Shown here one piece after another: positions 210-58,508 of a stretch of 64,000 bases of DNA. Below the pieces are notes generated by a model. It worked only from the letters and a program-made list of their open reading frames with translations. It had not been told where the DNA came from and did not search any database. The position numbers and the translations under genes are program-made. The stretch is from Planctomycetaceae bacterium (GTDB lineage Bacteria > Planctomycetota > Planctomycetia > Planctomycetales > Planctomycetaceae), in NCBI GenBank assembly GCA_020850695.1, contig JADZEF010000029.1, positions 1-64,000 on the forward strand. Reading direction: 5' to 3'. Positions within the stretch are counted from its first letter, which is position 1; the number at the start of each line of letters is the position of its first letter.

Positions 210-779
210 ATGTTTCATCAGACTCGTCCAGCCAGGAATTGCAAGAACGCGTTTCTCACAGCCAGAGCCGCAACTTGCTACGAGCCGCGGTGTTCGCTGA
301 TGTGCCGCTCCAATTGGGCCCGACTTCATTCAACTCGGCTCTTCCATCACCTCCACAAGATTTCCGGCAGCCACCATGTCTACTTTGGGAACGTCCAGAT
401 TCAGGACTTCCTCAGCCTCGAAGATCACCGCGATCTCAGAAAGCGACTTCTCCGGCAACTGCGTGAGTACGAGTCCGTCACAAAGACGGTTGCTCTGATC
501 CGAGGAACGAGCGAGACAGAACCTGACGGTCGGATTCACTATCACTACTGCATGTACGCGACTCAGCCGCTGAGCCATGCGGCCATGAAAGGGTTGTGGA
601 CAGAAGCATGCTATCCCTGCTCGACACGCATCTCCCATCGACCGCCCATCAAGGGATTGATGCCAGCCGCAAAGTACATGTTCAAGGATCTCAGAAACTC
701 CAAACCGGTCCTTTTGTTTGAACGCGCGAAGTTTCAGATCACTTGGGGCAGTCGTCTTTTCTTTCGCAATCCAATTTGA
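210..779 (+). CDS. Possible HUH-type rolling-circle Rep protein (189 aa)
   Basis: The second half contains IHYHYCMY, an H-x-H motif between hydrophobic residues as in HUH endonucleases, and further on AAKYMFKDL, which fits the Y-x-x-K catalytic motif of rolling-circle Rep proteins. Such proteins nick a replication or transfer origin and stay covalently linked through the tyrosine. A purine-rich stretch (GTTAGGGAGA) about 9 bases before the ATG supports the start. The first 45 residues look atypical, rich in Arg and Cys, so the gene may be frameshifted at its 5' end or start later. The polymerase, integrase and helicase remnants downstream fit a small replicating mobile element. The assignment rests on two short motifs. 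Confidence 0.42.
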   Translation: MFHQTRPARNCKNAFLTARAATCYEPRCSLMCRSNWARLHSTRLFHHLHKISGSHHVYFGNVQIQDFLSLEDHRDLRKRLLRQLREYESVTKTVALIRGTSETEPDGRIHYHYCMYATQPLSHAAMKGLWTEACYPCSTRISHRPPIKGLMPAAKYMFKDLRNSKPVLLFERAKFQITWGSRLFFRNPI

Positions 780-801
780 GCCGCCGGTGAACCACATTCA
801 A

Positions 802-840
802 GGATGTTTTTGACGCACCGCAGTTACGTCAAAAACATCC
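802..840. repeat. 14-bp perfect inverted repeat, possible nick-site hairpin
   Basis: Arms 802-815 (GGATGTTTTTGACG) and 827-840 are exact reverse complements around an 11-base loop (CACCGCAGTTA). It begins 22 bases after the Rep-like stop codon and overlaps the start of the polymerase fragment. Stem-loops of this kind serve as nick sites for HUH Rep proteins, but no terminator-like T-run follows, so the function is inferred. Confidence 0.6.
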
Positions 841-1190
841 CCGAAGTGGTCCACCACCGCGGCCAGCCCGACCACCCTCTGTTCGACCCGTTCATGCCAA
901 AGGATGTCATCCCGTGGTGCTTCCATCCCCGTTTGAAACAGGACGGCACCCAAACCGGGCGAATGCCTTCGGTTCAACCGGCCATCCACAACATGCCGCA
1001 GAAGTCCGCCATCAAGCGGATGATGATGAGCCGGTGGCGGCAGTACGGCGGCCTGCATCTTCAACACGACCAGTCGGCCATCGAAGTCCGCATTCTCGCC
1101 TGCCAGGCGATGGCCAATGACCGCATTCTGAAGGAAGCGTTTCAGAAAGGCTTCGACGCCCACAAGTACGTGGCGTCGATCATCGTCTAA
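804..1190 (+). pseudogene. Remnant of a family A DNA polymerase (palm part only)
   Basis: The 128 residues match the start of the polymerase domain of phage or plasmid family A polymerases: TQTGRMPSVQPAIHNMP corresponds to the TGR...NLQNIP motif and HDQSAIEVRILA to motif A (DYSQIELRVLA) with its catalytic Asp. DAHKYVAS then leads towards the O-helix. A TAA stop interrupts at 1188. Reading continues in the same frame after the stop as polymerase-like TKERKSCKKLGF (about 1206-1241), but the expected YG of the O-helix is found in another frame, joined to the next gene. The N-terminal exonuclease part and motif C are absent. I regard it as a broken gene. Confidence 0.7.
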
Positions 1191-1225
1191 GTTCCCAATC
1201 ACAAGACCACGAAGGAGCGAAAGTC

Positions 1226-2338
1226 ATGCAAGAAGCTCGGTTTTACGGAGTGGCGAATGATTCAAAGGCGTTGACTCGTCGCGGGTGGCTTCATGTTTCG
1301 GAAATCAGGTTGGGCGACGAAGTCTTGGGATTCGATTCCGGGGTGCTTCGATGGACACCGGTCAGACTGGTCGGTTGGCACCCTCAACTGCCCCTCGTCC
1401 GGATTCACAATGAAAACTTTTTTGAGGCGCTTTGCACTCCGGGACAGCGGTGGATCGGACATTGCCGACGCGGCGGAACGCGGACCAGGCGCATCGTCCA
1501 GGAAGTCTTCTCGACGCAATCAGTGAAGAAAGAACATTCCATCTACCTCTCTGCGCCGGTCGAGGATGAGCGGATGCTACCGATCACTCCTGCCGAAGCT
1601 GCACTTATCGGCTTCACCTATGGGGATGGATCGATGAATCGGTCGGAGTACACGGGTGCGCCATCCCAAGCCTTTGGCCGAAGGGTCGGATTCCGGGTGC
1701 AGATCTTTCAGAAGAAGCTCTTCGGCGTACGTTTCTTGGAAAGCATGATCAGTCAGTGGGGACGCGACGTCACTCGCTATATCCGTCCGACAGGCATCGA
1801 AGTCTTCTATCTGCAACCAGACGACGCTCGCAGCCTTTGGTACAGGGCGGGCCTCTACTTCGAGGAAGATCTCACGCAATTCGTTTTGAAATTGGGAACG
1901 CGATGCCGCAAGGCTTTCCTGGAAGGTGCATTCGTCGCCGAGGGCAGCTTCGATCGAAGAAAGATTCGTCACTACGCACAGAACCAAGGGGCCTTCGCGG
2001 AGGCGATCCGACTGGCGATCTTCATGGCAGGCAAGTTTCCTTCGCACAGCCTCAAGCACGATGGAGACAAGTCAGAGAAAACTTGCTACGTGCTCCGAGA
2101 AGGGAAGCCGTACGTGACCGGCCAGCGCATGCAATTCTGGCCACAAAAGCAGCTCGGTGCGGTCTGGAATCTGACGAACGACCTCGGAAGCTGGGTCGTC
2201 AAGCAGGGGGACTGCATCTTTCTCACCGGGGATGGATCCGTTCCATTGGGAACAGGATCTGAGACGTCCCTCGGTGCGTACCGAAATGTAAAGGGACATC
2301 AGGTGCATCGACCGACCTACGCCATCACTCAGTTTTAG
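1226..2338 (+). CDS. Intein-like Hint domain with LAGLIDADG homing endonuclease (370 aa)
   Basis: Residues 10-75 resemble intein block A and B: NDSKALTRRGWLHVSEI and LGDEVLG, then FEALCTPGQRWIG where TPxH is expected. Two LAGLIDADG motifs follow, LIGFTYGDGS and FLEGAFVAEGSFDR, the two active-site helices of a homing endonuclease. Near the C-terminus AVWNLTNDLGSWVV and IFLTGD resemble blocks F and G, where the usual ending is TGN or HN. The first residue is not Cys or Ser and the last Asn is replaced by Asp, so protein splicing is unlikely. FYGV directly before the Hint part looks like the O-helix of the upstream polymerase fragment, so this is probably an intein that split its host gene and decayed, or became a free-standing homing gene. 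Confidence 0.72.
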   Translation: MQEARFYGVANDSKALTRRGWLHVSEIRLGDEVLGFDSGVLRWTPVRLVGWHPQLPLVRIHNENFFEALCTPGQRWIGHCRRGGTRTRRIVQEVFSTQSVKKEHSIYLSAPVEDERMLPITPAEAALIGFTYGDGSMNRSEYTGAPSQAFGRRVGFRVQIFQKKLFGVRFLESMISQWGRDVTRYIRPTGIEVFYLQPDDARSLWYRAGLYFEEDLTQFVLKLGTRCRKAFLEGAFVAEGSFDRRKIRHYAQNQGAFAEAIRLAIFMAGKFPSHSLKHDGDKSEKTCYVLREGKPYVTGQRMQFWPQKQLGAVWNLTNDLGSWVVKQGDCIFLTGDGSVPLGTGSETSLGAYRNVKGHQVHRPTYAITQF

Positions 2339-2426
2339 TATCGCTTTTCCTAAGCAGCAGGTTTTCAAGTCATCCGCGAGCGAATCGAATACGTTCCTAA
2401 TATCGCTTAGAGACAAAAGCGATACT
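2337..2426. repeat. 12-bp inverted repeat with an extra half-copy before the integrase
   Basis: AGTATCGCTTTT (2337-2348, overlapping the preceding stop codon) is repeated in perfect inverse as AAAAGCGATACT (2415-2426). A partial direct copy, TATCGCTT, lies between them at 2401-2408. The array ends 22 bases before the recombinase start and could be arm-type or autoregulatory sites for it. Confidence 0.55.
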
Positions 2427-2448
2427 CATTTCCAGCAAGGGGAAGATC

Positions 2449-3075
2449 ATGTCGGGAGAAAGGTATGTTCCGTGGAATCGCGGACGGCGACTGCCGGCGG
2501 AGCCGCTCGTCTTGGATGAGGTCCGGAAGCTGATCGGCTCGGCGTCCGGACGGTCACCGACCGGGATTCGGAACCGGGCGTTGATCGTCGCGCTCTACCG
2601 CGGCGGACTTCGGTGCAGCGAAGCGCTCGATCTCTTTCCGAAGGACTGCAATCTCGGATCCGGAACGATTCGAATCCTCTGCGGTAAAGGCGGCCGATCG
2701 CGGGTCGTCGGGATCGATCCGGAGGCGGCCGGCGTCATCCAGCGCTGGCTGGACCGCCGGGTCGCCCTCGGGCTGACCGGACGGTACCCGGTGTTCTGCA
2801 CGCTCGACGGGAAGCCACTCCAACCCGTTTACGTGCGGAACCTGCTCCGGCGTCTCGGACAGCGGGCGGGGATCGACAAGCGGGTCCACCCGCACGGCCT
2901 CCGCCATACGCACGCGTATGAACTGGCCAATGAGAATTTCCCGCTCCACGTCATCCAACAGCAGCTCGGGCATTCGAGCCTGGCCACGACCGATCGCTAT
3001 ATCCGGCATCTGAGCGCCCCGGAAGTCGTCGAACGGATGAAGTCGCGGAAGTGTCGACTGGAAGCTCCTGAATAG
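2449..3075 (+). CDS. Short tyrosine recombinase / integrase (208 aa)
   Basis: This is a site-specific recombinase of the phage-integrase family, which breaks and rejoins DNA through a tyrosine. The full catalytic set can be read: Arg55 in GGLRCSEAL, a Lys near residue 80 in GKGGRS, His149-x-x-Arg152 in HGLRHTH, His175 in LGHSS and Tyr184 in DRYIRH. It consists almost only of the catalytic domain and lacks the usual N-terminal core-binding domain of about 100 residues, so it is either a minimal recombinase or shortened. GGGGAAG lies at proper spacing before the ATG. It sits next to helicase and Rep-like genes, which suits element maintenance. Confidence 0.88.
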   Translation: MSGERYVPWNRGRRLPAEPLVLDEVRKLIGSASGRSPTGIRNRALIVALYRGGLRCSEALDLFPKDCNLGSGTIRILCGKGGRSRVVGIDPEAAGVIQRWLDRRVALGLTGRYPVFCTLDGKPLQPVYVRNLLRRLGQRAGIDKRVHPHGLRHTHAYELANENFPLHVIQQQLGHSSLATTDRYIRHLSAPEVVERMKSRKCRLEAPE

Positions 3076-3151
3076 CGTCTTCCGTCGCCATCGAAGTTCG
3101 TGTGCGCGGTGTGTCGAGTGTGCTGAGTGTGTCGGGTCGTGGAGGGATTGA

Positions 3152-4741
3152 ATGTTCGACTTCAGTGCGTGGCCAAATGGTGTCTCTCAGCCGCACTCGG
3201 AGACGCCGACAGCCGTGGCGGAGCCAGAACCTTTCATCTGGAACGACGATGCTCCGTCACAGCAGAACTACGACGGTCTCGGTTTTCGGTTGGCCGCGAC
3301 CCGCGCCTTCTTTCGCGGGCCGGAAGGCGGTCTGGTTCAGGTCGCGGCTCCCGGGTCAGATCCACGATACATCCTCTCCGGCAGGGAGTTATGGCCCTTG
3401 CTTGTGGACCTTCTGGGGGCGTGCGTCATGAAACGCGGCGAGCTGACGGGACGCGCCATCTCTCGCGGACATCTTGACGCGCTGCTCCACACAGATACTT
3501 TCCTCCGCCACTTTCATCCGATCACCACCGTGACCGATGTGCCTCGGTATCTCTCGAACTTCGAGATTTCAGAACCGGGTTACAACAAGATCAGTCGACA
3601 TGAGGCGGTGTACTACACGGGGAATACGCCTCAGGTCAGCTATGACTTGTGTGCGATGCCCCGGTTTCTTGATGTGATGGCGTTTGAGACGAATGCGGAC
3701 CGCACGAATGCCGTCGCGGCGGCGCTGACTGTCATGCTCCGCGGACACTGGCCGGGTGGAAAGCCGATCGTGCTGGCGACTGCAACGAAGAGCCACGCCG
3801 GCAAGGACACGATTCTGGATTTTGCGGCCGGCGTCGAACGCAAACAGTCTATCTCTTATCAGGACAAGGACTGGCCGGTCGAACGGTCATTCGTCGCGGC
3901 GGCGAAAGGTCCCCCCTGTCCAGCCCTCATCGTCATAGAGAATGCCCGTCTGGGACGCGGCCATGACAAGATCGCCTCAGCTTACATCGAACGGTTCACC
4001 ACCGATCCGAATCCGATGCTGTTCTCCACGGGAACAGGAGGCCCGGTCCGCGTCAGGAACGATTTCGTTGTCGCGATCTCCACGAATTCCGGCCAGGTCA
4101 GCGAAGACCTTCTGAACCGATGCCTGCCCATCCATCTTGTCCCCCGGGGAGACATTCATCTTCGCGGCTGTCCGATCGGAAATCCTCGGCACACGTACCT
4201 GCCGGAACACAGGGAGCGGATCGCGGCCGAGCTGCGCGGAATGATCGAGCGATGGAAGTGCGCCGGCCGGCCGGCAGCGACGGACGTGGCTCATCCCTTC
4301 TCAGAATGGGCACGAGTCATCGGTGGTATTCTCCGCATCAACGGCTTCGTGGACTTCCTGGCCAACTACGGGAAGCGCAAATCGTGCGACGATCCCGTTC
4401 GCGAAGGGCTGGCCACACTCGGTGCCGCAAGGCCGGATGACTGGTTGCGACCATCTGACTTGGCCGGCATTGTCGAGAATCTCGGACTCGTCGGCCGTCT
4501 GATCTCCGTGTCGGATCGGGAGTGCGGCGCATCACGTGCGCGCGGGTTGGGAGTCCTGCTTTCGAAACATGTCGGAGAGACGGTCATGGTGGAGACAGAG
4601 GATGGCGTGATGTCATTCAAGATCGGAAAAACGCGACAGCGGTTTAGCGGAATTGTCCAGACGCGGTACCGTTTCGCTCGCGCCGGCTTCCTGCCGGCTC
4701 CGACCGATGAGGACCCGCCGGCCGCCGGCTTGGTCGACTGA
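3152..4741 (+). CDS. SF3/AAA+-like replication helicase of a mobile element (529 aa)
   Basis: A probable ATP-driven replication protein. Around residues 207-222, IVLATATKSHAGKDT is a divergent Walker A loop (AGKDT in place of GKT). Around residue 257, PALIVIENAR fits Walker B, and near residue 306, VVAISTNSGQ followed by LLNRCLPIHL fits sensor 1 and an arginine finger, the order seen in the helicase part of phage and plasmid primase-helicases. No primase motifs are visible before it. GGAGGG at good spacing supports the ATG. It follows the recombinase by 76 bases on the same strand. The family is not certain; the ATPase reading is moderately supported. Confidence 0.6.
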   Translation: MFDFSAWPNGVSQPHSETPTAVAEPEPFIWNDDAPSQQNYDGLGFRLAATRAFFRGPEGGLVQVAAPGSDPRYILSGRELWPLLVDLLGACVMKRGELTGRAISRGHLDALLHTDTFLRHFHPITTVTDVPRYLSNFEISEPGYNKISRHEAVYYTGNTPQVSYDLCAMPRFLDVMAFETNADRTNAVAAALTVMLRGHWPGGKPIVLATATKSHAGKDTILDFAAGVERKQSISYQDKDWPVERSFVAAAKGPPCPALIVIENARLGRGHDKIASAYIERFTTDPNPMLFSTGTGGPVRVRNDFVVAISTNSGQVSEDLLNRCLPIHLVPRGDIHLRGCPIGNPRHTYLPEHRERIAAELRGMIERWKCAGRPAATDVAHPFSEWARVIGGILRINGFVDFLANYGKRKSCDDPVREGLATLGAARPDDWLRPSDLAGIVENLGLVGRLISVSDRECGASRARGLGVLLSKHVGETVMVETEDGVMSFKIGKTRQRFSGIVQTRYRFARAGFLPAPTDEDPPAAGLVD

Positions 4742-4823: not shown

Positions 4824-5681
4824 ATGACGCGCGAACAAGTGGGATCGCTATTCAACGCACTTCAGGCTGCAATGGACCCCGCCCCCGAGAATCTCTGCGC
4901 GGTCTTGCAGAACCTGCCCGCTCACGAGTACTTCCCTCCCCCGTGGACAACGTGGACTCTGTTGTCCTTGTTCGAGTATCGGAAGAAGCAGGACAGAGTG
5001 AGGCTTCAAGCTCAACGGGACATGCCCGACGTGTTTCCCCCGAGCCCGCAACTCGTCGAAATCGAACAGCCGCTTCGAAGGTCCTTCGATGAAAGCTCAC
5101 AATGGGAGTGGTTTCTGGAGTGCGGGGTTGGCTTCGGGTATCTCGTCCACAGCCGAACCCAGGAGTGCGTTACTTTTGGCTTGAAGGAGGACAATGCGGG
5201 GATCTTCTTTGCCGATCTCGCAGGCTTCCAGCCGAACGAGCAGCAAAGGAGCGCCGCTGGAGTCCGTTTCTGCGAGTTGCATCCTTCGCCGGTGACTTGC
5301 TTCCGTGATGTCGGCGAGCTTTATGACTGTGAGTTGCTTCAGGGGCACCATTACATTTCCTCAGACGTCCGGAGAGATGTCGAGCCGGATGGCTACTCTC
5401 TCGCGGACGAACTCCTGCCCTGGTCGAGCGTGGTTTCCGAGTTCGTCCGCCGCTGCGATGACAACACTAACGGAGTCTGGTTGGCCGCACTGATCGGCGA
5501 CTGGATGCTCGCCCATACCATCGCCGCGTTGCTGGGGAGACACGATCTTGCCTCGGCGACCGAGGCTCGGGCGGCTCAGCAGCGGGCCGATCACTCCTTG
5601 CTGATCCGACGAATGCACTCTCGACGGCCAACTCCCGGGATCACGCTGGACAGCGGTGATCGACTTGTCCATTCGGCTTGA
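4824..5681 (+). CDS. Unrecognised soluble protein of the mobile-element region (285 aa)
   Basis: I do not recognise a family. The protein is acidic and rich in aromatic residues, with no membrane segment or signal peptide. The start at 4824 is preferred because GAAGGA stands 7 bases before it; another ATG lies at 4809, and further upstream the frame overlaps the helicase gene. It follows the helicase by 82 bases in the same direction and is the last gene before the structured region at 5957-6110. No cysteine pairs or catalytic signatures stand out. Confidence 0.55.
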   Translation: MTREQVGSLFNALQAAMDPAPENLCAVLQNLPAHEYFPPPWTTWTLLSLFEYRKKQDRVRLQAQRDMPDVFPPSPQLVEIEQPLRRSFDESSQWEWFLECGVGFGYLVHSRTQECVTFGLKEDNAGIFFADLAGFQPNEQQRSAAGVRFCELHPSPVTCFRDVGELYDCELLQGHHYISSDVRRDVEPDGYSLADELLPWSSVVSEFVRRCDDNTNGVWLAALIGDWMLAHTIAALLGRHDLASATEARAAQQRADHSLLIRRMHSRRPTPGITLDSGDRLVHSA

Positions 5682-5956
5682 GGACGCAGAGTTGCGGTGG
5701 CGAGACTCCCGCCGGATTCATGTCGATGCCACGGTTCTGGCCCAATAAATCTTGCCGGACGGCAACCCAGTTCTCGGGCGACGGCTGAGAGATGTCGTCG
5801 AAGAATGTCTCAAGCGAGATCGATTGCCGCCGACACCTGCTGTGTGTACTCTTGCTCCGTCGGTGAGGCTCGCGGAGCCATACCGACGACTCAGCGTTAC
5901 GTTATTGGAGCATTTCCGCATGACCGTGGTCGCGATGCGACCACCGACAACTTGAA

Positions 5957-6110
5957 GGCGCGAAAGCGCCAGGCTGCCCCCGCCTAAACCCGCCAACCTG
6001 AGCGTTCCAACGCTCTTGAAGTTTCACAGAGGCAGAACTGGAGCCGCGCCCCCCGTAAGGGGGGCGTCGGCCGGTTCTGTCTGTGCGCCCCTTGGCGGGG
6101 GTTGGCGGGC
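5957..6110. other. Complex inverted-repeat structure (RNA or DNA), multibranched
   Basis: This gene-free stretch (5682-6258) contains nested pairings. GGCGC-GAAA-GCGCC (5957-5970) is a perfect tetraloop hairpin. CCCGCCAACC (5989-5998) pairs perfectly with 6100-6109. Inside that closing helix are GAGCGTT-CC-AACGCTC (6000-6015), a long hairpin 6025-6085 of about 26 pairs with three small bulges and a GTAA loop (6055-6058), and CGCC-CCTT-GGCG (6086-6097). The result is a closed multi-arm fold. It lies between the mobile-element genes and the sigma factor and could be a structured RNA leader, a cruciform origin or an element end. The rest of 5682-6258 shows nothing else. Confidence 0.6.
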
Positions 6111-6258
6111 ACTCCGGTTCGGCGCTCCCTGTTTTTATGCGCCAAGCCTTTCTCTGCCCGTGCCAGTTTCCCTGCTACCCGATTCAAGAAATCCGAATTT
6201 CCGGTGGAAATCCGGAAAGGTTTTTCCGACGCCAGCGTGCTGCTCTTCAGAGGACGAG

Positions 6259-6858
6259 ATGCCGGACCTTCCCGCAACGCCTCCCAGCCTCATCGTTCGC
6301 ATTCAGAACAGGGAGAAACACGCCGACGCAGCATGGGGTCAGCTTCTCGAAATCTACACGCCGATCGTGGTGCGTTTCGTTCGTTCGCGGGGTCTGCAAG
6401 ATGCCGACGCTTGCGATGTGGCTCAAGAAACATTCCGGACGGTCGCTCACTCGATTGGCGGGTTTGACCCGGTCCCGGAAAAGGGGCGGTTCCGGGACTG
6501 GCTGTTCGTCATTGTCCGCAGCCGGCTGGCCGATCACCGGCGGCGGACGGCGCGGACGCAACAGGGGTCAGGCGATCCGGACATCCACGCAGCACTGGAT
6601 GGGATTGTCCGTGAGGAACCTCATCAGGCACTTTGGGACCAGGAGTACCAGCAGCAGTTGCTGACTTGGACGGCAAAGCACGTTCGCGGCGAGTTCACGG
6701 AATCGACCTGGGCGGCGTTCTGGATGACCGCGGTGGACGGGCATCCCGCCAATGATGTGGCGGGTCGGCTCGGAATGACCGTAAGCAACGTCTACGTCTG
6801 CAAGAGTCGGGTGCTGGCGCGGCTTCGAGACAAGGTCCGAGAGATCGAAGGGGAGTGA
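6259..6858 (+). CDS. ECF-type RNA polymerase sigma factor (199 aa)
   Basis: Directs RNA polymerase to specific promoters. Region 2 is visible in ADACDVAQETF and GRFRDWLFVIVRSRLADHRRR (the DCDVaQE/FRaWL pattern common in planctomycete ECF factors). Region 4 is the helix-turn-helix HPANDVAGRLGMTVSNVYVCKSRVLARLRD. The length is normal for ECF factors. The ATG at 6259 is chosen because homology begins right after it, although the frame is open further upstream. The stop overlaps the GTG of the kinase gene (GTGA), so the two are translationally coupled. In planctomycetes this sigma-kinase pairing is common, and the kinase probably controls the sigma factor or its regulon. Confidence 0.93.
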   Translation: MPDLPATPPSLIVRIQNREKHADAAWGQLLEIYTPIVVRFVRSRGLQDADACDVAQETFRTVAHSIGGFDPVPEKGRFRDWLFVIVRSRLADHRRRTARTQQGSGDPDIHAALDGIVREEPHQALWDQEYQQQLLTWTAKHVRGEFTESTWAAFWMTAVDGHPANDVAGRLGMTVSNVYVCKSRVLARLRDKVREIEGE

Positions 6859-8549
6859 ATCTCCCGGGATGGATCATGGAACCCTCGACAACGAAACCTG
6901 ACGCCGGTGAGTTAAGACGGCTTCTCGCCGGCGGATTGTCGCCGGAAGAGGAGTGTCGGATTCTGGAACTGGTTGAGTCCAATGAAGGGTGTATTCACCT
7001 CCTCGAAGACGCCGCTGCGGATCCGCAATTCCGAGCGGACGTCCGAGAGTTTCTCGGAAGACATGCTCCGCCAGAGCCGGCGGTTGAGAAGATTGTCGCC
7101 CATGTTGCCGGTCTCGCGAGGGAGCCGAACTCGCCATCGCTCGATTTTCTCGACGCGGCCGACACAGACGAATTTCTGGGGAAGTTCGACGGCTACCAAG
7201 TTCTGGCGTGCATAGGCAGCGGCGGCATGGGCGTTGTGTTGAAAGCCGTGGATCCTGCGCTCAATCGAGTTATTGCGTTGAAGGTTCTTTCGCCGCACCT
7301 TGCCACGAGCGCGAATGCCCGAAAGCGGTTCTTGCGGGAAGCCCGCGCCGCGGCGGCCGTGTGTCACGAGAACGTCGTCACAATCCACGCCGTGCGCGAA
7401 GCGGCTCGCCTTCCGTATCTGGTGATGGAATTCATCGGGGGAGTCTCACTTCAGGAGAGAATCAATTCGGAAGGTCCGCTGCCGGTCGTCGAGATTCTTC
7501 GGATCGGGATACAGGTCGCCGGCGGTCTGGCGGCCGCGCACGCTCAGGGACTGGTTCATCGCGACGTGAAGCCGGGAAACATCCTGTTGGAAAACGGCGT
7601 TCAACGCGTGAAGATCACCGACTTTGGTCTGGCTCGGGCCGCGGATGATGGCGGCATCACGCACGACGGGATGATGGTTGGAACTCCCGAGTACATGTCC
7701 CCCGAACAGGCCCGTGGCGAACCGGTGGACCATCGCACGGACCTGTTCAGCCTGGGGAGCGTTCTCCATGCGATGTGTACCGGGAAGTCGCCCTTCCGTG
7801 CAGAGACGACGACGGGAATTGTCCATCGCGTGTGCAACACGGATCCTTGCCCTCTCTTTGAACGAGACGCCGCCATTCCCGGCTGGCTCGCGGCCATTGT
7901 TTCCCGTCTGCATGCCAAGGCGCAGCAGGATCGGATTCAGTCCGCGGTCGAGGTCGTCGAGTTGCTCGGAGGACATCTGGCCGCCCTCCAGAGGGGGGAT
8001 GACCCGGCGCTATTGAATCTTGGAAAGGAGAGCCGGATGGCCGGCCTCTGGCTGCCGTGTACCGGGGTTATCGCACTGCTGGCAGGTGCCGTCGCAGGTA
8101 GCTCGGTCATCTCGCAGGAACCCAAGGCCTCATTGCAAGATTGGCCGGCGAGAGACCCTTTGCCGCTCAAGTCAGACGAAGCGACGCGCCGGATGTCCCC
8201 GCCGGCGATTGCGCCGGATGTGCTGTCCGCGCTGGCGCAGCCCGTCACTCTCAACGTTCCCTACGCACCACCCTACAAGGATGCCCCGACCGACAAATTG
8301 TCGGTTCAGTATGCGGTGAAAGACATCTGCGCCCAAGTCGGGCTCTCCTACCACTGGTCGAAGTCGCAACGAGGGTCGGCTCCGTTCCACAAGCGTTGGG
8401 TCACCCCGCACTTTGTGAACGTCCCCGCGCGCGATGCGCTGGGGGAGTTGCTTCGGCCCTTCCAATTGACTTTCGCTGTCGACGAGTCCGGTGTCTTCCT
8501 GAAACACGTCGATGACGGCGCTAATCCGCGCACCCCTGAAGGGAAATGA
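6855..8549 (+). CDS. Membrane Ser/Thr protein kinase with C-terminal STN-like module (564 aa)
   Basis: Residues from about 119 to 380 form a Hanks-type kinase: glycine loop GSGGMGVV, Lys in ALKVL, HRDVKPGN catalytic loop, DFG, and GTPEYMSPEQ activation segment. A hydrophobic stretch near residues 397-420 is one membrane helix. The part beyond it (about 455-550) ends in RDALGELLRPFQLTFAV, which resembles an STN (secretin/TonB short N-terminal) fold and is shared with the FGE-like protein downstream. The kinase domain should be cytoplasmic and the tail periplasmic. The start may be the coupled GTG at 6855 or ATG at 6876. The N-terminal region before the kinase may contact the coupled sigma factor; that is inference. 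Confidence 0.93.
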   Translation: MNLPGWIMEPSTTKPDAGELRRLLAGGLSPEEECRILELVESNEGCIHLLEDAAADPQFRADVREFLGRHAPPEPAVEKIVAHVAGLAREPNSPSLDFLDAADTDEFLGKFDGYQVLACIGSGGMGVVLKAVDPALNRVIALKVLSPHLATSANARKRFLREARAAAAVCHENVVTIHAVREAARLPYLVMEFIGGVSLQERINSEGPLPVVEILRIGIQVAGGLAAAHAQGLVHRDVKPGNILLENGVQRVKITDFGLARAADDGGITHDGMMVGTPEYMSPEQARGEPVDHRTDLFSLGSVLHAMCTGKSPFRAETTTGIVHRVCNTDPCPLFERDAAIPGWLAAIVSRLHAKAQQDRIQSAVEVVELLGGHLAALQRGDDPALLNLGKESRMAGLWLPCTGVIALLAGAVAGSSVISQEPKASLQDWPARDPLPLKSDEATRRMSPPAIAPDVLSALAQPVTLNVPYAPPYKDAPTDKLSVQYAVKDICAQVGLSYHWSKSQRGSAPFHKRWVTPHFVNVPARDALGELLRPFQLTFAVDESGVFLKHVDDGANPRTPEGK

Positions 8550-8550
8550 A

Positions 8551-8718
8551 ATGGCCACCAAAGTCTTCGAAGCGAAGGTTTACCTGGAAGGCACGAGCGG
8601 ACCGGTCCCGGTCCAGGTGCAAGCTCGGGACATTCCGGACGCCCGCCGAATCATCCAGGCTCAATATGGATCACGTTTCAAGAGGTTCGCCAACGGTCCG
8701 CTCGAAGTGAAGAAGTGA
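8551..8718 (+). CDS. Small conserved-looking protein (55 aa)
   Basis: The ATG directly follows the kinase stop and has GAAGGGAAATG-type purine-rich sequence before it. The product, starting MATKVFEAKVYLEG and ending GPLEVKK, is predicted as a short beta-rich chain, and codon positions look like those of the neighbours. I do not recognise a family. Position between the kinase and the GYF-domain gene suggests membership of the same operon. Confidence 0.6.
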   Translation: MATKVFEAKVYLEGTSGPVPVQVQARDIPDARRIIQAQYGSRFKRFANGPLEVKK

Positions 8719-8815
8719 GGGACCACTCTTGCCTAGCGGTGTCATTGTTGCCCTGCAAATCGGCAAGAAACCCATTGAATTTTTTCATCACGGCTCAACG
8801 AGGACGTTTCACCCA

Positions 8816-9385
8816 ATGGCCACAGACGAATGGCGCTACAGCACTGGCGATGACAATGAGCAAGGCCCAGTTTCCACCGCAGAACTCGGTCGGTTGGCGG
8901 AGACGGGACAACTGAAGCCTGACGACCTCGTCTGGAAGGAAGGCATGGCGAAGTGGGTCCCCGCAAGCCGAGTGAAAGGGCTGAAGTTCGTTGTTGCCGC
9001 ACCGGCAGCCCCACCACCGATGCCATCGGCGACATTCAGCGCCCAGTCGCTCAAGGCAACGCTCCAGGAGGCACAACTGCGAGCCGACGAAGCCGCCGGG
9101 GCGTTATGGTTTCTCGACCTGAAGTTCAACCGTTTCATTTCCGCGACGCTGGTCCGCGGAGTGTGGATGGTCTACCTGTTACTTGTCGCTTTGGGCGTTG
9201 TGCTAGGGACGCTTGGGTCAATTCTCCGGTATCCAATTCATCTCGCCGTGTTAGGGGCCGTCGGATCTCTCCTGCTGGCCGGGCTGACGACGGTCATGTT
9301 TCGAATGCTCCTCGAAGCCTTCATGGTGGTGTTCCGAATCGCCGAGCATTTGCGAGAGATTCGCGACGAGACCGTGTCTCATTGA
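8816..9385 (+). CDS. GYF-domain membrane protein with DUF4282-like C-terminus (189 aa)
   Basis: Residues 5-58 (EWRYSTGDDNEQGPVS, then LKPDDLVWKEGMAKWVPAS) match the GYF_2 domain, a small protein-interaction module (W-Y...GP...L...G). Two hydrophobic stretches near residues 115-137 and 142-162 and the ending RMLLEAFMVVFRIAEHL resemble DUF4282, a two-helix membrane domain. The ATG at 8816 is preferred because the domain begins there; an in-frame TTG at 8729 would add 29 atypical residues. It probably localises a partner at the membrane. It follows the kinase in the same direction. Confidence 0.8.
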   Translation: MATDEWRYSTGDDNEQGPVSTAELGRLAETGQLKPDDLVWKEGMAKWVPASRVKGLKFVVAAPAAPPPMPSATFSAQSLKATLQEAQLRADEAAGALWFLDLKFNRFISATLVRGVWMVYLLLVALGVVLGTLGSILRYPIHLAVLGAVGSLLLAGLTTVMFRMLLEAFMVVFRIAEHLREIRDETVSH

Positions 9386-9459
9386 CGTTCGACAAATCGC
9401 GAATCTCTCAAGTTCAAAGAGCGTGCGCCTCCCGCGGACACCGACCGGAGAAAAATGCC

Positions 9460-11967
9460 GTGAGCGAGCCAGATCCCGCCGACCGGAATGACACCGACAA
9501 ACCGTCCCCGCCGCCTCGTCCGAAACGCGAGGTCGCCGTCACTCCACCCCCGCGACCAAAGCGTTCCGCACCTCCGCCGCGCCCTGTCCGCGAACGGCCC
9601 GTCACGAGCGGAAAGGGTGTCTCGCGAGCGGCTGGGCGGAAAACATGGGGGTTCGTCACGCTTGGACTCCTTGGGGTGGGCATGGTCGCTGCCGGAGCGG
9701 CGTCTCTGACCGGCATTGGGGGACTGTCTTCTCTGGTCGAGTTGGGTGGTCCGTCCAATACGCGGTCCGCCGATTTCACCGGAGCGGAGGTCAAAGCTTT
9801 GATGCTCATGCTGAGGGACGATCCGGACCTGCAGGCGAACTACCTCAACGAGCGCGGTCCAGTGGACGGCGCGTCGCGCTTGATTCCTTTGCGGTTATGG
9901 GAGGCCCTCTTCGGAGAACCCGCATCCACGACGAGAATCGGCGGCGACAGCCACTGGATCTATCTGGCAAGCGACGGACAGGTCGGTATCACTCCCGGCC
10001 CTCGTAACCTGGACGATGACACTCCGGTCCACTGGATCATTCTTTGGACGGTCGACAGCACGGTTTCAGTTTCCGGCACGCCTGTCCGGAAAGACGAACT
10101 GAAAGCGCTGGCGCTGCGAATGAAGAAGCGGGTCGATGGGGAACTGGAATCGTCCGGGCAACTGGCACAACGCGCCGAGTTGAGCCGGAAGTGGGAACAG
10201 GAGGAGGCAGACCGAAAGCGACAGCAGGCCGCCGACGATCAGCGGCGGAACGAGGAGTCGGCCAAGGCCGAGGAACAACGCGGTCGGGAGAGGGACGCGG
10301 TTCATGCCGAGAAGGAATACTGGAAGCTTCGTGAAAGCCTTCCGTTGGGGGGCGAGAGGGACGCCTTCCCTCCCCGCTCACAGGATTGGATCAAGCGGAG
10401 GGCTGCAGTCATTACCGAAGCGAGGTTGAAAGGAGTCATCACTGTCGATCGAAATTTTGGTTTCGAGAAGTACCAAGGGGAGATTCCCTTGCCGCCGATC
10501 GACGCCGTACTTGCTGCTCTCCGCAAAGGGACTTCCATTCCCGTCACGGCTGCCGACGCCGGCTCGAATCAGGAGCCGGAACCGAATTCGCCCCGCGAGG
10601 CGACGAAGGGTTCCAAGAGCAAGCAACCATCAGACGCGAAGAGTGTGCCGGCGCTCGCCGTATCACCGTTCGACGTCGCGCAAGCAAAAGCTCATCAGCA
10701 CGCATGGGCGACGCATCTTGGCGTGACGGTCGAACGCACCAATGCCGTTGGGATGAAGTTCACACTGATCCCGCCGGGTGAGTTCCAGATGGGTAATCCC
10801 GATTCGGTTGACGATGCCACTCCGCCGACCAAACCGCAGCACCGCGTCCGCATCAGTCGGGCCTTTTATTCCGGGATGCACGAGGTCACAATCGCCGCTT
10901 TTCGTCAGTTCATTGATGACGCGAACTACCGGACGGATGCCGAGAAAGAAGGGATTGGCGGAAGCGGATACGATCTGGAAAAGTCGGAGCTTGTGAAGAA
11001 GCCGGAGTACACCTGGAAGGAATATGGAGTTCCGCGGGGCGAAGACCATCCGGTCAACAACGTCAGTTGGAATGACGCGACAGCTTTCTGCGAATGGCTC
11101 ACCTCCAAAACCGGCCAGACTCATCGCCTGTTGACCGAAGCCGAGTGGGAATATGCTTGCCGCGCCGGAACCACGACCCGCTTTTCCAACGGGGACGATC
11201 TGGAGTCGCTCACGCAGGTCGGTAATGTGGCAGACGCGACCGGCAAGGCGAAGTTCCCCGCTTGGACGACGATCGCTGCCGCCGATGGATTCGTCTTCAC
11301 GTCGCCGGTCGGTTCATTCCGGCCGAATGCGTTCGGTCTCTTCGACATGCACGGCAACGTGACGGAGTGGTGCCAGGACTGGCATCACGCCGACGAATAC
11401 GCCGCCCGCGCCACCCGCGCCACCCGCATCGCCATCGATCCCGTACGAACGGACCCTCCCAGCCAACGCGTTTTTCGCGGGGGTGACTTCATTTTTCATC
11501 CGAACGTGTGCGGATCGGCCAGTCGTTCTTATGCTCCGCCGAGTTTTCGGGATTTCCGCACGGGGTTCCGGGTCGCCATCACGTTGCAGCCGCCGGCGGA
11601 AGTCATCAACCCTGCGACGAAGAACGAACCGCAGGATCCCAACGACAACAAGCAGAAAAACGCCCAGCTTGTCGAGGCGGCGCTCGGCAAACGAGTCTCT
11701 CTCAGAGCGCCGTATCCGACCGTGGACAAGTCCGAGAAGGGAGATCGCATCACTGTCCAGTTTGCGGTGAAAGAGATCGGGCGGCAGGCGGGCGTTGGGT
11801 ACGACTTCGAAGCGTCGCTAAAAAACGCAGACCCGGAATGCCGTCGCTGGGTGAAGCCCGTCATTCGCAACATGCCGTGCCGGGACGCACTGGAAGCCAT
11901 CCTGAAACCGGCTGGATTGACGTACCGGCTCGAAGGCAATGCCATTGTGCTGCAACGTCGGAAGTGA
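9460..11967 (+). CDS. Membrane-anchored FGE-sulfatase-fold protein with C-terminal STN-like module (835 aa)
   Basis: The N-terminus is proline-rich, followed by a membrane helix near residues 61-85, an unassigned domain, and a charged coiled coil near 225-285. Residues about 424-710 are the formylglycine-generating-enzyme (SUMF1) fold: VGMKFTLIPPGEFQMG, HPVNNVSWNDATAFCEWL, LLTEAEWEYACRAG, GLFDMHGNVTEW and TGFRVAI. Of the two catalytic cysteines of true FGE, the first is Phe679 and the second Cys684, so sulfatase-activating activity is unlikely and a binding role is more plausible. The last 90 residues repeat the kinase tail module. The GTG start at 9460 is chosen because the proline-rich coding pattern begins there. 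It probably works with the kinase at the cell envelope. Confidence 0.85.
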   Translation: MSEPDPADRNDTDKPSPPPRPKREVAVTPPPRPKRSAPPPRPVRERPVTSGKGVSRAAGRKTWGFVTLGLLGVGMVAAGAASLTGIGGLSSLVELGGPSNTRSADFTGAEVKALMLMLRDDPDLQANYLNERGPVDGASRLIPLRLWEALFGEPASTTRIGGDSHWIYLASDGQVGITPGPRNLDDDTPVHWIILWTVDSTVSVSGTPVRKDELKALALRMKKRVDGELESSGQLAQRAELSRKWEQEEADRKRQQAADDQRRNEESAKAEEQRGRERDAVHAEKEYWKLRESLPLGGERDAFPPRSQDWIKRRAAVITEARLKGVITVDRNFGFEKYQGEIPLPPIDAVLAALRKGTSIPVTAADAGSNQEPEPNSPREATKGSKSKQPSDAKSVPALAVSPFDVAQAKAHQHAWATHLGVTVERTNAVGMKFTLIPPGEFQMGNPDSVDDATPPTKPQHRVRISRAFYSGMHEVTIAAFRQFIDDANYRTDAEKEGIGGSGYDLEKSELVKKPEYTWKEYGVPRGEDHPVNNVSWNDATAFCEWLTSKTGQTHRLLTEAEWEYACRAGTTTRFSNGDDLESLTQVGNVADATGKAKFPAWTTIAAADGFVFTSPVGSFRPNAFGLFDMHGNVTEWCQDWHHADEYAARATRATRIAIDPVRTDPPSQRVFRGGDFIFHPNVCGSASRSYAPPSFRDFRTGFRVAITLQPPAEVINPATKNEPQDPNDNKQKNAQLVEAALGKRVSLRAPYPTVDKSEKGDRITVQFAVKEIGRQAGVGYDFEASLKNADPECRRWVKPVIRNMPCRDALEAILKPAGLTYRLEGNAIVLQRRK

Positions 11968-12000
11968 AGACCGTCCAACGTACGAAAGCATGCCTCTACT

Positions 12001-12252
12001 CTTCATTTCAAGTGCGATGAGGCATTAGCTACCGGACGAGTGGTCAAACGCAGATTGCGAGAAGAGGGCGTGCCGCTCATATTAGCGCCCCACTCGTTCC
12101 GCGCCGGATCCATCACGGGTCTGTTGAATTTAAGTGTCGCACTCGGAGATGTGCTGAATCCTGCGTGCCACGCCGACCCGCCAGCCACTCAGCTGCACGA
12201 CCGTCGAAAGAGACAGGTCACGCGGAACGCCGTCGAGCGAATCGCCACCTGA
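12001..12252 (+). pseudogene. C-terminal remnant of a tyrosine integrase
   Basis: The translation includes LAPHSFRAGSITGLLNL, then CHADPPATQLHDRR and VTRNAVERI. These correspond to the HxFR box, the GHA(D) box and the Y-D-R-R ending of planctomycete-type integrases, but the catalytic Tyr position reads His and the Arg/Lys half of the enzyme is missing. There is no good start. It is the tail of a dead integrase, in line with repeated element insertion here. The surrounding gap 11968-12364 holds no other gene. Confidence 0.72.
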
Positions 12253-12364
12253 CGACGCACGCGGATCATCTCAGCTGGCATTGCGTGACCGGCAGGTATA
12301 CTCGCCACTGCCTGGAATCTCTGGTAAGGTTTGCAGGGGCGGTTGCCTAGCCGGAGAAACTCAA

Positions 12365-12562
12365 ATGCCCAAAGTTCACGACTTTTTGCAGGTCCAAGAA
12401 GTGGCAAAGCTTCTCGGCGTGTCGCCTAACACCGTGCGCAATTGGGGACGCGAGGACAAACTTCCTGAATTTCGCCATCCTGTGAATAACTACCGTCTCT
12501 ATCGCAGGCAGGATGTGGAAAAGATGCTCCACGCACTGCAAATGCCGAAGAGAACGCGGTAA
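12365..12562 (+). CDS. MerR/excisionase-like helix-turn-helix protein (65 aa)
   Basis: A single winged helix-turn-helix DNA-binding domain: FLQVQEVAKLLGVSPNTVRNWGREDKLPEFR, then NYRLYRRQDVEKML. This is the pattern of the HTH_17/MerR small proteins that act as excisionases or local repressors. GGAGAAAC-like purines precede the ATG. It lies just after the integrase remnant and 54 bases before the SIS-HAD gene on the same strand, so it could control excision of a former element or transcription of the operon that follows. Confidence 0.82.
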   Translation: MPKVHDFLQVQEVAKLLGVSPNTVRNWGREDKLPEFRHPVNNYRLYRRQDVEKMLHALQMPKRTR

Positions 12563-12616
12563 TCGGTCAGAAATCCGTGGACGCATTCGCGTTCGCCCAA
12601 AGAATCGGAGTTCACG

Positions 12617-14563
12617 TTGGGTAGGCCATTTGAAGATGAGCTGCAAGCCCTGCCATCAACGTATTCATGGGCGATGGCACAATCCATTGATGAACTGGTC
12701 CGCGCCGTCGAGCGGCTTTTCTCAGTGCCGCTGCTCGCTGTTGGCTCGGGGGGGTCATTCACAGCCTGTCATTTCGCTCGCCACCTTCATGAGTCTTATG
12801 CACAGCAACCGGCAATCTCTCTCACACCTCTTCAAGCGGTTGACCGGCGCACTCCAAGTTCGCGGATGTCGATTCTCGTCCCAACTGCTGGCGGCAACAA
12901 TCCGGATGTCGTCGCTGCGGTGCGGCTCCTAACTGAAAACGAACCTCGCAGTTTGTTAATCGTCTGTGGCGATCCCGAATCGAGGGTGGCGACACTGGCC
13001 AGTCGTTACGAAATGGTCGACTTCGCGCCGTTTCTTCTGCCGTCGGGAAGGGATGGATTTCTGGCGACCAATTCGTTACTGGCTTTTTGTGTTCTACTCA
13101 CCCGTGCCTATGCAAGGGTAGCAGGCCGTCCAGCGCTACTCCCGAAGAGCCTCAAGTCCCTGTTGAGCGAAAGCCGTATTGGAAGAAGAACTACATCCCA
13201 GGAAAAGGAGTTCCAGGCGTTGTTGGAACGGAACACGCTAGTTGTCCTACATGGCCCTTCGACAGCCGCGGCTGTTGTGGACATTGAATCAAAGTTCACT
13301 GAGGCCGCGCTCGGGACGGTGCAGCTTGCGGACTATCGGCAGTTCGCCCATGGTCGTCATCATTGGATCGCCAAGAATCCGACGACGACGGCTGTGCTTT
13401 CGCTGGAGTCGGAAGATGATGGAAACGTCTCCGCTCAGACTTTGTCATTGCTTCCCGAAGAAATTCCGATCAAGCGTGTTTCGATTCCGGGACAAGGACC
13501 AATCGCAGACCTCGCTGGTATCATTGAAGGGTTTTATCTCGCCGCTGCGGCGGGTCACGCTCGCGGCATCGACCCAGGAAGACCGGGCGTTCCGTCGTTT
13601 GGCCGAAAGCTTTATCGCGCAAACGCATTCCGCCGTTCTCGTAAAGAAGATGCAATTCCTCCGTGGAAGGCGCGGCCTATTGAACGCAAAGCTGCCCACC
13701 GCATCGAGAGTCTCGTCGAGGAAGACCGCTTGCCGTTTTGGCTCTCATCTTTCGATGACGTTGTGCAGCAACTCGCTGACGCCCGCTTCCAAGGGATCGT
13801 GGTCGACTACGATGGCACGCTTTGCCACGAGGACCGACGGGCTGATCCATTGCCGCCCGACATCGTCAACGTCCTCACGGATTTGTTGAAGTCGGGACTG
13901 GTCTTGGGGGTAGCGACTGGGCGAGGTAAATCTGTCCGGGAACGACTTCGAGAGGCTCTGCCGAAAAAGTATTGGCCGCAGGTGGTGGTTGGTTACTACA
14001 ACGGCGCGGAACTGTTCGGGCTCAGCGACCCACAGCTTCCTGATGGAACCGAGAGAGTGGGGCCGGAATTGGCAGAGCTTGCTCTGGCTTTCCAGGCGGA
14101 CCGACTGCTGGAGTCAGGGAAGCTCACACTGCGTCGGAAACAAGTCACGCTAAGCCAAATGCGAGGCCTGACACTTCAAGCTCTCTGCGAGCATGCCGAA
14201 GCCATCATCAGCCATGTAACTCCGAACACCGTTCGTGTCATGCGATCCGGACATTCGGTCGACATCGTTCCTCAGTCAGTGACTAAGTTGGCTGTCGTTG
14301 AACGTGTCCAACAAATCGCTGGGCAAGGCACCGACCCGATTCTCCGAATCGGAGATCGGGGATGTTGGCCAGGGAACGATGCACAGTTGTTAGCAAGCCC
14401 TTTTGGCCTCAGCTCGTACGAAGTATCTTCAGATAGTTCTGGTTGCTGGAATCTCGCCCCGGCGGGACATCGTGGTCACCAAGCGACGCTTGGATACTTA
14501 AAGCAGCTATCGATCAACAAAAGAGGAATCCGCTTCTCATGGCGGCCGGGTAGCGGAGGATAA
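12617..14563 (+). CDS. SIS-domain and HAD-phosphatase fusion protein (648 aa)
   Basis: The N-terminal half is a sugar isomerase (SIS) domain: PLLAVGSGGSFTACHFARHL near residues 38-60, typical of phosphosugar binding, with a second SIS-like lobe near 200-320. The C-terminal part is a HAD phosphatase: motif I DYDGT (Asp397, Asp399), motif II in GVATGRGKS, a Lys near VTKLAVV and motif IV GDRGxxxxND (Asp580, Asp588). The cap resembles phosphomannomutase or trehalose phosphatase types. The TTG start has CGGAG 6 bases before it. The fusion suggests sequential handling of one phosphosugar. The stop lies 2 bases before the next ATG, whose Shine-Dalgarno GGAGG is inside this gene, so the operon is coupled. 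Confidence 0.88.
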   Translation: MGRPFEDELQALPSTYSWAMAQSIDELVRAVERLFSVPLLAVGSGGSFTACHFARHLHESYAQQPAISLTPLQAVDRRTPSSRMSILVPTAGGNNPDVVAAVRLLTENEPRSLLIVCGDPESRVATLASRYEMVDFAPFLLPSGRDGFLATNSLLAFCVLLTRAYARVAGRPALLPKSLKSLLSESRIGRRTTSQEKEFQALLERNTLVVLHGPSTAAAVVDIESKFTEAALGTVQLADYRQFAHGRHHWIAKNPTTTAVLSLESEDDGNVSAQTLSLLPEEIPIKRVSIPGQGPIADLAGIIEGFYLAAAAGHARGIDPGRPGVPSFGRKLYRANAFRRSRKEDAIPPWKARPIERKAAHRIESLVEEDRLPFWLSSFDDVVQQLADARFQGIVVDYDGTLCHEDRRADPLPPDIVNVLTDLLKSGLVLGVATGRGKSVRERLREALPKKYWPQVVVGYYNGAELFGLSDPQLPDGTERVGPELAELALAFQADRLLESGKLTLRRKQVTLSQMRGLTLQALCEHAEAIISHVTPNTVRVMRSGHSVDIVPQSVTKLAVVERVQQIAGQGTDPILRIGDRGCWPGNDAQLLASPFGLSSYEVSSDSSGCWNLAPAGHRGHQATLGYLKQLSINKRGIRFSWRPGSGG

Positions 14564-58434: not shown

Positions 58435-58508
58435 CGTAGCACGGGCACTCATGCCCGTGCGAAAAGCTGAGGCTTCACTCACTCAAGGGCATGAGTGCCC
58501 GTGCTACG
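58435..58508. repeat. 22-bp perfect inverted repeat made of nested palindromes
   Basis: Arm 58435-58456 is the exact reverse complement of 58487-58508. Each arm also contains an inner palindrome (ACGGGC-ACTCAT-GCCCGT at 58441-58458 is the left one). A relative of the inner palindrome occurs after rpsB (61907-61924). This suggests a family of extragenic palindromes. The rest of the gap 58333-58600 shows no gene. Confidence 0.8.

Follow-up and report, generated by a model that had tools for sequence, protein, structure and literature searches.

A stretch of about 190 bases upstream of a sigma-factor gene in planctomycete DNA probably encodes a cis-acting RNA leader that would control the next gene by transcription attenuation in the manner of a riboswitch, most likely switching it on or off. 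We favour this reading, which is drawn from sequence comparison and structure modelling, because the element combines mutually exclusive helices that both covary with a U-rich run, a pseudoknot and a co-directional downstream gene. If it is correct, a large and strongly conserved regulatory RNA that is absent from Rfam is present in roughly one in four of the genomes sampled from one class and provides a handle on gene regulation in Planctomycetota.

The copy described here lies in a stretch of 64,000 nucleotides (the window), on a 64,115-base contig of an 8.6 Mb genome (G000) in which a genome-wide search recovered this single copy. The element, its upstream flank and the genes that follow are laid out as follows (window positions):

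5914-5954, forward strand: 5′ flank, with an SD-like TTGGAGC and the imperfect inverted repeat GTGGTCGCGATGCGACCAC, then CGACAACTTGA (TGACAATTTGA in other copies)
5957-5970, forward strand: hairpin P0b, GGCGC-GAAA-GCGCC (99.2% of cells paired in 100 sequences; two-sided changes in 5 of 5 pairs)
5975-5987, forward strand: 5′ strand of helix P1, CUGCUUCCnnCAAA in other copies (two-sided changes in 10 of 11 pairs)
5990-5996 with 6092-6098, forward strand: helix P2, closing the multi-branch core (99.6% of cells paired; two-sided changes in 6 of 7 pairs)
6000-6015, forward strand: hairpin P3 (100% of cells paired; two-sided changes in 4 of 4 pairs)
6025-6085, forward strand: long hairpin P4 with GTAA loop, 5′ strand 6025-6052 and 3′ strand 6061-6085 (from the covariance alignment and the window fold)
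6087-6090 with 6099-6102, forward strand: pseudoknot helix PK, GCCC with GGGT (99.0% of cells paired; two-sided changes in 4 of 4 pairs)
6058-6138, forward strand: hairpin B, the 3′ strand of P4 with the 3′ tail (6061-6074 with 6113-6128), then a U-rich run at 6129-6136 (from covariation and folding)
6259-6858, forward strand: ECF-type sigma factor (Sigma-70 region 2; Pfam PF04542, E 7.9e-10), first downstream gene
6879-8549, forward strand: serine/threonine protein kinase (Pfam PF00069, E 1.6e-45), second downstream gene

The structure in the window is far beyond chance, since positions 5950-6115 of the forward strand fold as RNA at -99.8 kcal/mol, while shuffled sequences average -71.4 kcal/mol (z -6.4; 0 of 200 shuffles fold as well) and the opposite strand folds with z -5.5. 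A preliminary description, made from the letters alone, had judged such nesting unlikely to arise by chance and had proposed folding both strands, and these values bear it out. The tetraloop hairpin that it placed in front of the structure is P0b, and the hairpins that it saw enclosed are present as well, one at 6000-6015 and the long one with the GTAA loop at about 6025-6087. It set the limits at 5957-6110, where there is indeed structure, but the element extends further, from about 5945 to 6136, and includes a tail at 6111-6136. The perfect 10-bp helix that it reported is equally real, CCCGCCAACC (5989-5998) being fully complementary to GGTTGGCGGG (6100-6109), and forms part of the nested-model energy optimum for the window sequence; its role as the closing helix holds in that optimum only, whereas the conserved closing helix is P2. 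This 10-bp register is available because the window carries the motif TTGGCGGG twice, at 6092-6099 and 6102-6109. Since the optimum that includes it lies 18 kcal/mol below the forced conserved core (state A) without its pseudoknot, and a search of the window gave no promoter-like match, the window copy may be atypical or decaying.

Homologues were sought by two routes. A DNA search among 59 relatives gave clear matches in about a dozen genomes, and RNAalifold on 15 aligned homologues (MAFFT) found compensatory changes in 28 of 51 pairs. A covariance model built from these 15 sequences was then applied with a threshold of E ≤ 0.001. It picked up homologues in 16 of 61 genomes at the level of the family, in 90 of 398 for the class and in 30 of 392 for the phylum, and most E-values lay between 1e-16 and 1e-43; the covariance search of planctomycete genomes suggested at the outset has recovered homologues with compensatory changes. 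Genomes with the element are scattered among species and hold one to six copies each. Named records with matches, many of them confirmed by the covariance model, include Planctomycetes bacterium Pan216 and MAGs called Schlesneria, Planctomyces, Gimesia, Pirellula, Rhodopirellula and Phycisphaerae, and there are single matches in MAGs labelled Acidobacteria, Verrucomicrobiales, Alphaproteobacteria, Hydrogenedentes and an archaeon; those outside Planctomycetota may be misbinned contigs. In one genome (G103), two oppositely oriented copies lie 2.3 kb apart (locus L107, 6001-6190 on the reverse and 8450-8648 on the forward strand). Viral spread was considered and set aside: in IMG/VR, a first sequence pattern matched no contig and a second matched one, with a partial copy at the contig edge, and the element was not found in phage or plasmid records. 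Searching the window and 20 homologous loci against Rfam 15 gave no match at the gathering threshold.

Covariation of the core was scored on a 100-sequence alignment (51 base pairs, 5,044 cells, 500 shuffles). There, 96.7% of the cells are paired, 46 of the 51 pairs have changed on both sides, and the score of 0.430 compares with 0.160 in shuffled alignments (reached in 0 of 500) and at most 0.073 in slid controls. This alignment was fitted to the model structure and so favours it, whereas the MAFFT alignment of 15 homologues was not, and compensatory changes already appeared in the latter. The preliminary description had named a lack of compensatory changes and a folding energy no better than that of shuffled sequence as grounds for giving up the structure, and neither is what we see. 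PK covaries as well (0.264 against 0.127 shuffled) and, because it encloses the 3′ strand of P2, forms a pseudoknot with that helix. P1 pairs 5978-5987 with 6102-6109 in the window, reaching up to 5975/6110 with a degenerate outer end. A possible alternative helix, CUGCUUC/GAAGCAG (alignment columns 45-51 with 130-140), gave only a weak signal (0.212 against 0.186 shuffled). The early suggestion of an undescribed structured RNA therefore stands, given the two-sided changes, the missing Rfam match, the single orientation and the U-run at the 3′ end.

The tail adds a second, competing structure. A scan of all column pairs by mutual information, guided by no structure other than that in the alignment, whose model lacks any pairing between tail and P4, recovered the helices of the model and in addition pairs between the tail and the 3′ strand of P4 (columns 189-274, 186-275, 198-263 and 182-280). 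In the 100-sequence alignment, 97.4% of the cells of this tail:P4 helix are paired (99.2% in its ten outer pairs), and its covariation of 0.344 exceeds the 0.245 of shuffled alignments (0 of 500) and the 0.06 to 0.16 of slid controls. P4, presumed to be the antiterminator form, and the tail helix thus both covary, and they overlap at alignment columns 180-201, which makes them mutually exclusive. The tail, with the consensus CUUGGUUCGGCGCUCC, is similar in sequence to the 5′ strand of P4, CUUGGACCGCGCCCCC, and the two therefore compete for the same partner. When the 3′ segment is folded in isolation, 95 of 100 copies adopt hairpin B as their minimum-energy structure (mean z -5.3). A U-run follows the tail directly: of the 9 nt behind it, five or more are U in 97 of 100 copies (mean 6.6 U). 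The corresponding segment of the window, 6058-6138, has a folding energy of -50.3 kcal/mol (z -5.0). By sequence and modelling, hairpin B would be a conserved hairpin of the intrinsic-terminator type.

Several details of this 3′ region qualify the picture. An inner extension of hairpin B to the 3′ strand of P1 (B2) scores above all shuffles (0.252 against 0.203) and is poor in the window itself. The outer stem of hairpin B encloses several dozen nucleotides, which fold too, making it longer than usual intrinsic terminators, a point that counts against an attenuator. A simpler terminator, in which the 3′ strand of P1 pairs with CGCUCC (GGAGCG/CGCUCC; 84% of cells paired), was replaced by the tail:P4 helix because it showed no covariation above shuffles. 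Around the U-run, a subset of copies clearly shows an extra hairpin (GGCGC...GCGCC) that is not general; the attenuator model leaves it unexplained. A second terminator-like inverted repeat, TTTCCGGTGGAAATCCGGAAA, lies at 6192-6218 of the window, between the RNA element and the sigma-factor gene. With the pseudoknot left out of the calculation, forced state A (the core) averages 8.8 kcal/mol below state B (hairpin B), and state B is the lower of the two in 16 of 100 copies; modelled in this way, the energy balance is compatible with a poised switch.

Put together, the leader would first fold, during transcription, into a pseudoknotted multi-branch core (P1-P2-P3-P4 with PK). The emerging tail could then take the place of the 5′ strand of P4 in pairing with the 3′ strand, and the resulting tail:P4 hairpin with its immediate U-run would release RNA polymerase. 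A putative signal that stabilises the core, be it a metabolite, a protein, a ribosome or temperature, would block this displacement and let the polymerase continue, so that the simplest prediction is an ON switch in which stabilisation of the core leads to read-through. Three points are inferred: that hairpin B acts as a terminator, that control runs in the ON direction and that a signal is sensed. More tentatively, the element may represent a new, Planctomycetota-specific class of ligand-sensing riboswitch, large and pseudoknotted, the ligand of which could serve as a signal common to accessory genes in general (those for sigma factors, LuxR-type regulators, GYF_2 and zinc-ribbon membrane proteins, dynamin-like GTPases and restriction-modification). 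Were this so, finding the ligand would reveal a signalling molecule of Planctomycetota.

The choice between the two folds could also be made by translation, either through a ribosome that occupies the SD-like site upstream or through a leader peptide. Of 52 copies, 28 carry a GGAG-type motif in the interval 20-40 nt before the element, an enrichment over the roughly 0-6 of other 20-nt bins, and a short reading frame follows in some copies, including that of the window (ATG ACC GTG ... TGA, 11 codons). Because many copies have this motif, which the attenuator model leaves unexplained and which thus counts against it, we keep the ribosome-coupled version as a candidate. Yet the short upstream frames vary in position, length and sequence and are missing in many copies, unlike in known leader-peptide attenuators, and no conserved leader peptide was found among them, so that we regard translational coupling as rather unlikely. 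In many loci, the SD-like motif and the inverted repeat occur at about -20 to -45 without a conserved reading frame, and the upstream inverted repeat is above shuffles on average.

Less likely still is that the element is the gene of a trans-acting small RNA with a promoter of its own, hairpin B being merely its intrinsic terminator and the neighbouring genes incidental. Such a gene would account for the conserved U-run and terminator-like hairpin, and promoter-like sequence does lie upstream in one genome (G665), where a sigma-70-like promoter (TTGACA, 17 nt, TAGYGT in most) is common to six paralogous copies. It would also suit the finding that most downstream genes are mutually non-homologous. 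What it does not predict is the co-directional dominant downstream ORF in 94 of 98 loci, compared with 55 of 95 for the upstream ORF (Fisher p 7e-11), nor its closeness: the best predicted start lies at a median of 54 nt, often 14-60 nt, past the end of the RNA model. Moreover, the 5′ strand of the terminator doubles as the 3′ strand of a covarying helix, for which a plain terminator has no need.

These observations fit the cis-acting attenuator better, and the ECF sigma factor of the window, which starts 126 nt past the end of the RNA model, is presumed to be its regulated gene. Pfam scans of 91 downstream genes gave 11 GYF_2 proteins, 6 LuxR-type regulators, 4 dynamin-like GTPases and 3 DnaJ proteins, besides sigma factors, kinases, a type III methyltransferase and many genes without a Pfam match. 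This diversity suggests no common signal or pathway, which counts against the attenuator. A defence cassette was also considered and rejected: phage-like and restriction genes lie nearby, but the downstream set as a whole does not consist of defence genes.

The least plausible reading is that the element acts as DNA (a cruciform, an attC-like folded single-strand recombination site or the end of a mobile element), which would match its sporadic presence, its several copies per genome, the phage-like or restriction-type neighbours in several loci (from a reading of the ORFs) and the presence, in two genomes, of RIT-like recombinase trios within P4. Against it, the frequent conserved G-U pairs, a U-run at one end only and the strict orientation to the downstream gene indicate RNA, no element boundary recurs, and the RIT insertions use the element as a target and split it. 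Neither DNA function offered by the preliminary description, cruciform origin or element end, finds support: at almost all loci a co-directional gene follows immediately behind the element, and the copies do not mark a recurrent element boundary. Among the loci compared, no position typical of an integron attC site or mobile-element end emerged, there being no recurrent boundary and unrelated genes behind the copies. In each of two genomes (G376 and G121), the two paralogous copies compared are similar within the element only, up to both of its ends; the two copies of another genome (G001) are 100% identical in the element and 92% identical in their flanks.

The tyrosine recombinase trios just mentioned (about 3.5 kb) interrupt the 3′ strand of P4 at one shared position in the two genomes (L025, about 9954-13470, G030:C43; L028, about 7997-11526, G032:C1). 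G(C/T)CGG stands at both of their ends and tracks the local target variant, and the palindrome at the left end repeats target bases. The window itself has mobile-element-like genes at 210-4741, among them one that weakly matches rolling-circle replication proteins (REP_ORF2-G2P; 210-779), a family-A DNA polymerase fragment (804-1190) followed by a co-directional intein-like ORF without a Pfam match (1226-2338), and a tyrosine integrase (2449-3075). Far away, at 58435-58508, the inverted repeat CGTAGCACGGGCACTCATGCCCGTG, with 25-nt arms that are 96% complementary and 24 nt apart, is possibly another hairpin element.

With regard to known systems, we place the element as a new class within the attenuators or transcription-terminating riboswitches, with the reservation that the motif Rhodopirellula-1, compared by its published description only, might overlap with it. 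That motif is described as a candidate cis-regulatory element of Proteobacteria and Planctomycetes, rated only ambiguous as an RNA and given there without an Rfam accession (Weinberg 2010, PMC2864571). We call the class new because no Rfam family matches it and the texts of two later genome-wide RNA surveys make no mention of planctomycetes (PMC11109978, PMC8632094).

Processive antitermination RNAs (HK022 put, EAR/epsC) are likewise structured leaders that act on transcription in cis, and epsC (RF01735), which is in Rfam, is not matched by the element. These RNAs are not known to have a built-in strand-exchange terminator. T-box leaders, too, are attenuators working by strand exchange, and there is a superficial likeness between the T-box sequence, UGGNACCGCG, and the 5′ strand of P4, CUUGGACCGCG. 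However, an Rfam search of 5600-6400 gave no T-box match (RF00230) even at E up to 10, the element has no recognised specifier stem, and its downstream genes are not amino-acid or tRNA-synthetase genes.

A close parallel is offered by transcription-terminating riboswitches such as c-di-GMP-I. The element differs from them in matching no Rfam family, in that ligand binding is putative and in keeping the 5′ strand of its terminator in the long hairpin P4 rather than in P1. As in those riboswitches, a conserved core in the 5′ leader is coupled to mutually exclusive antiterminator and terminator forms, and several copies per genome precede diverse, non-homologous genes; this placement before unrelated accessory genes suggests a shared signal to look for.
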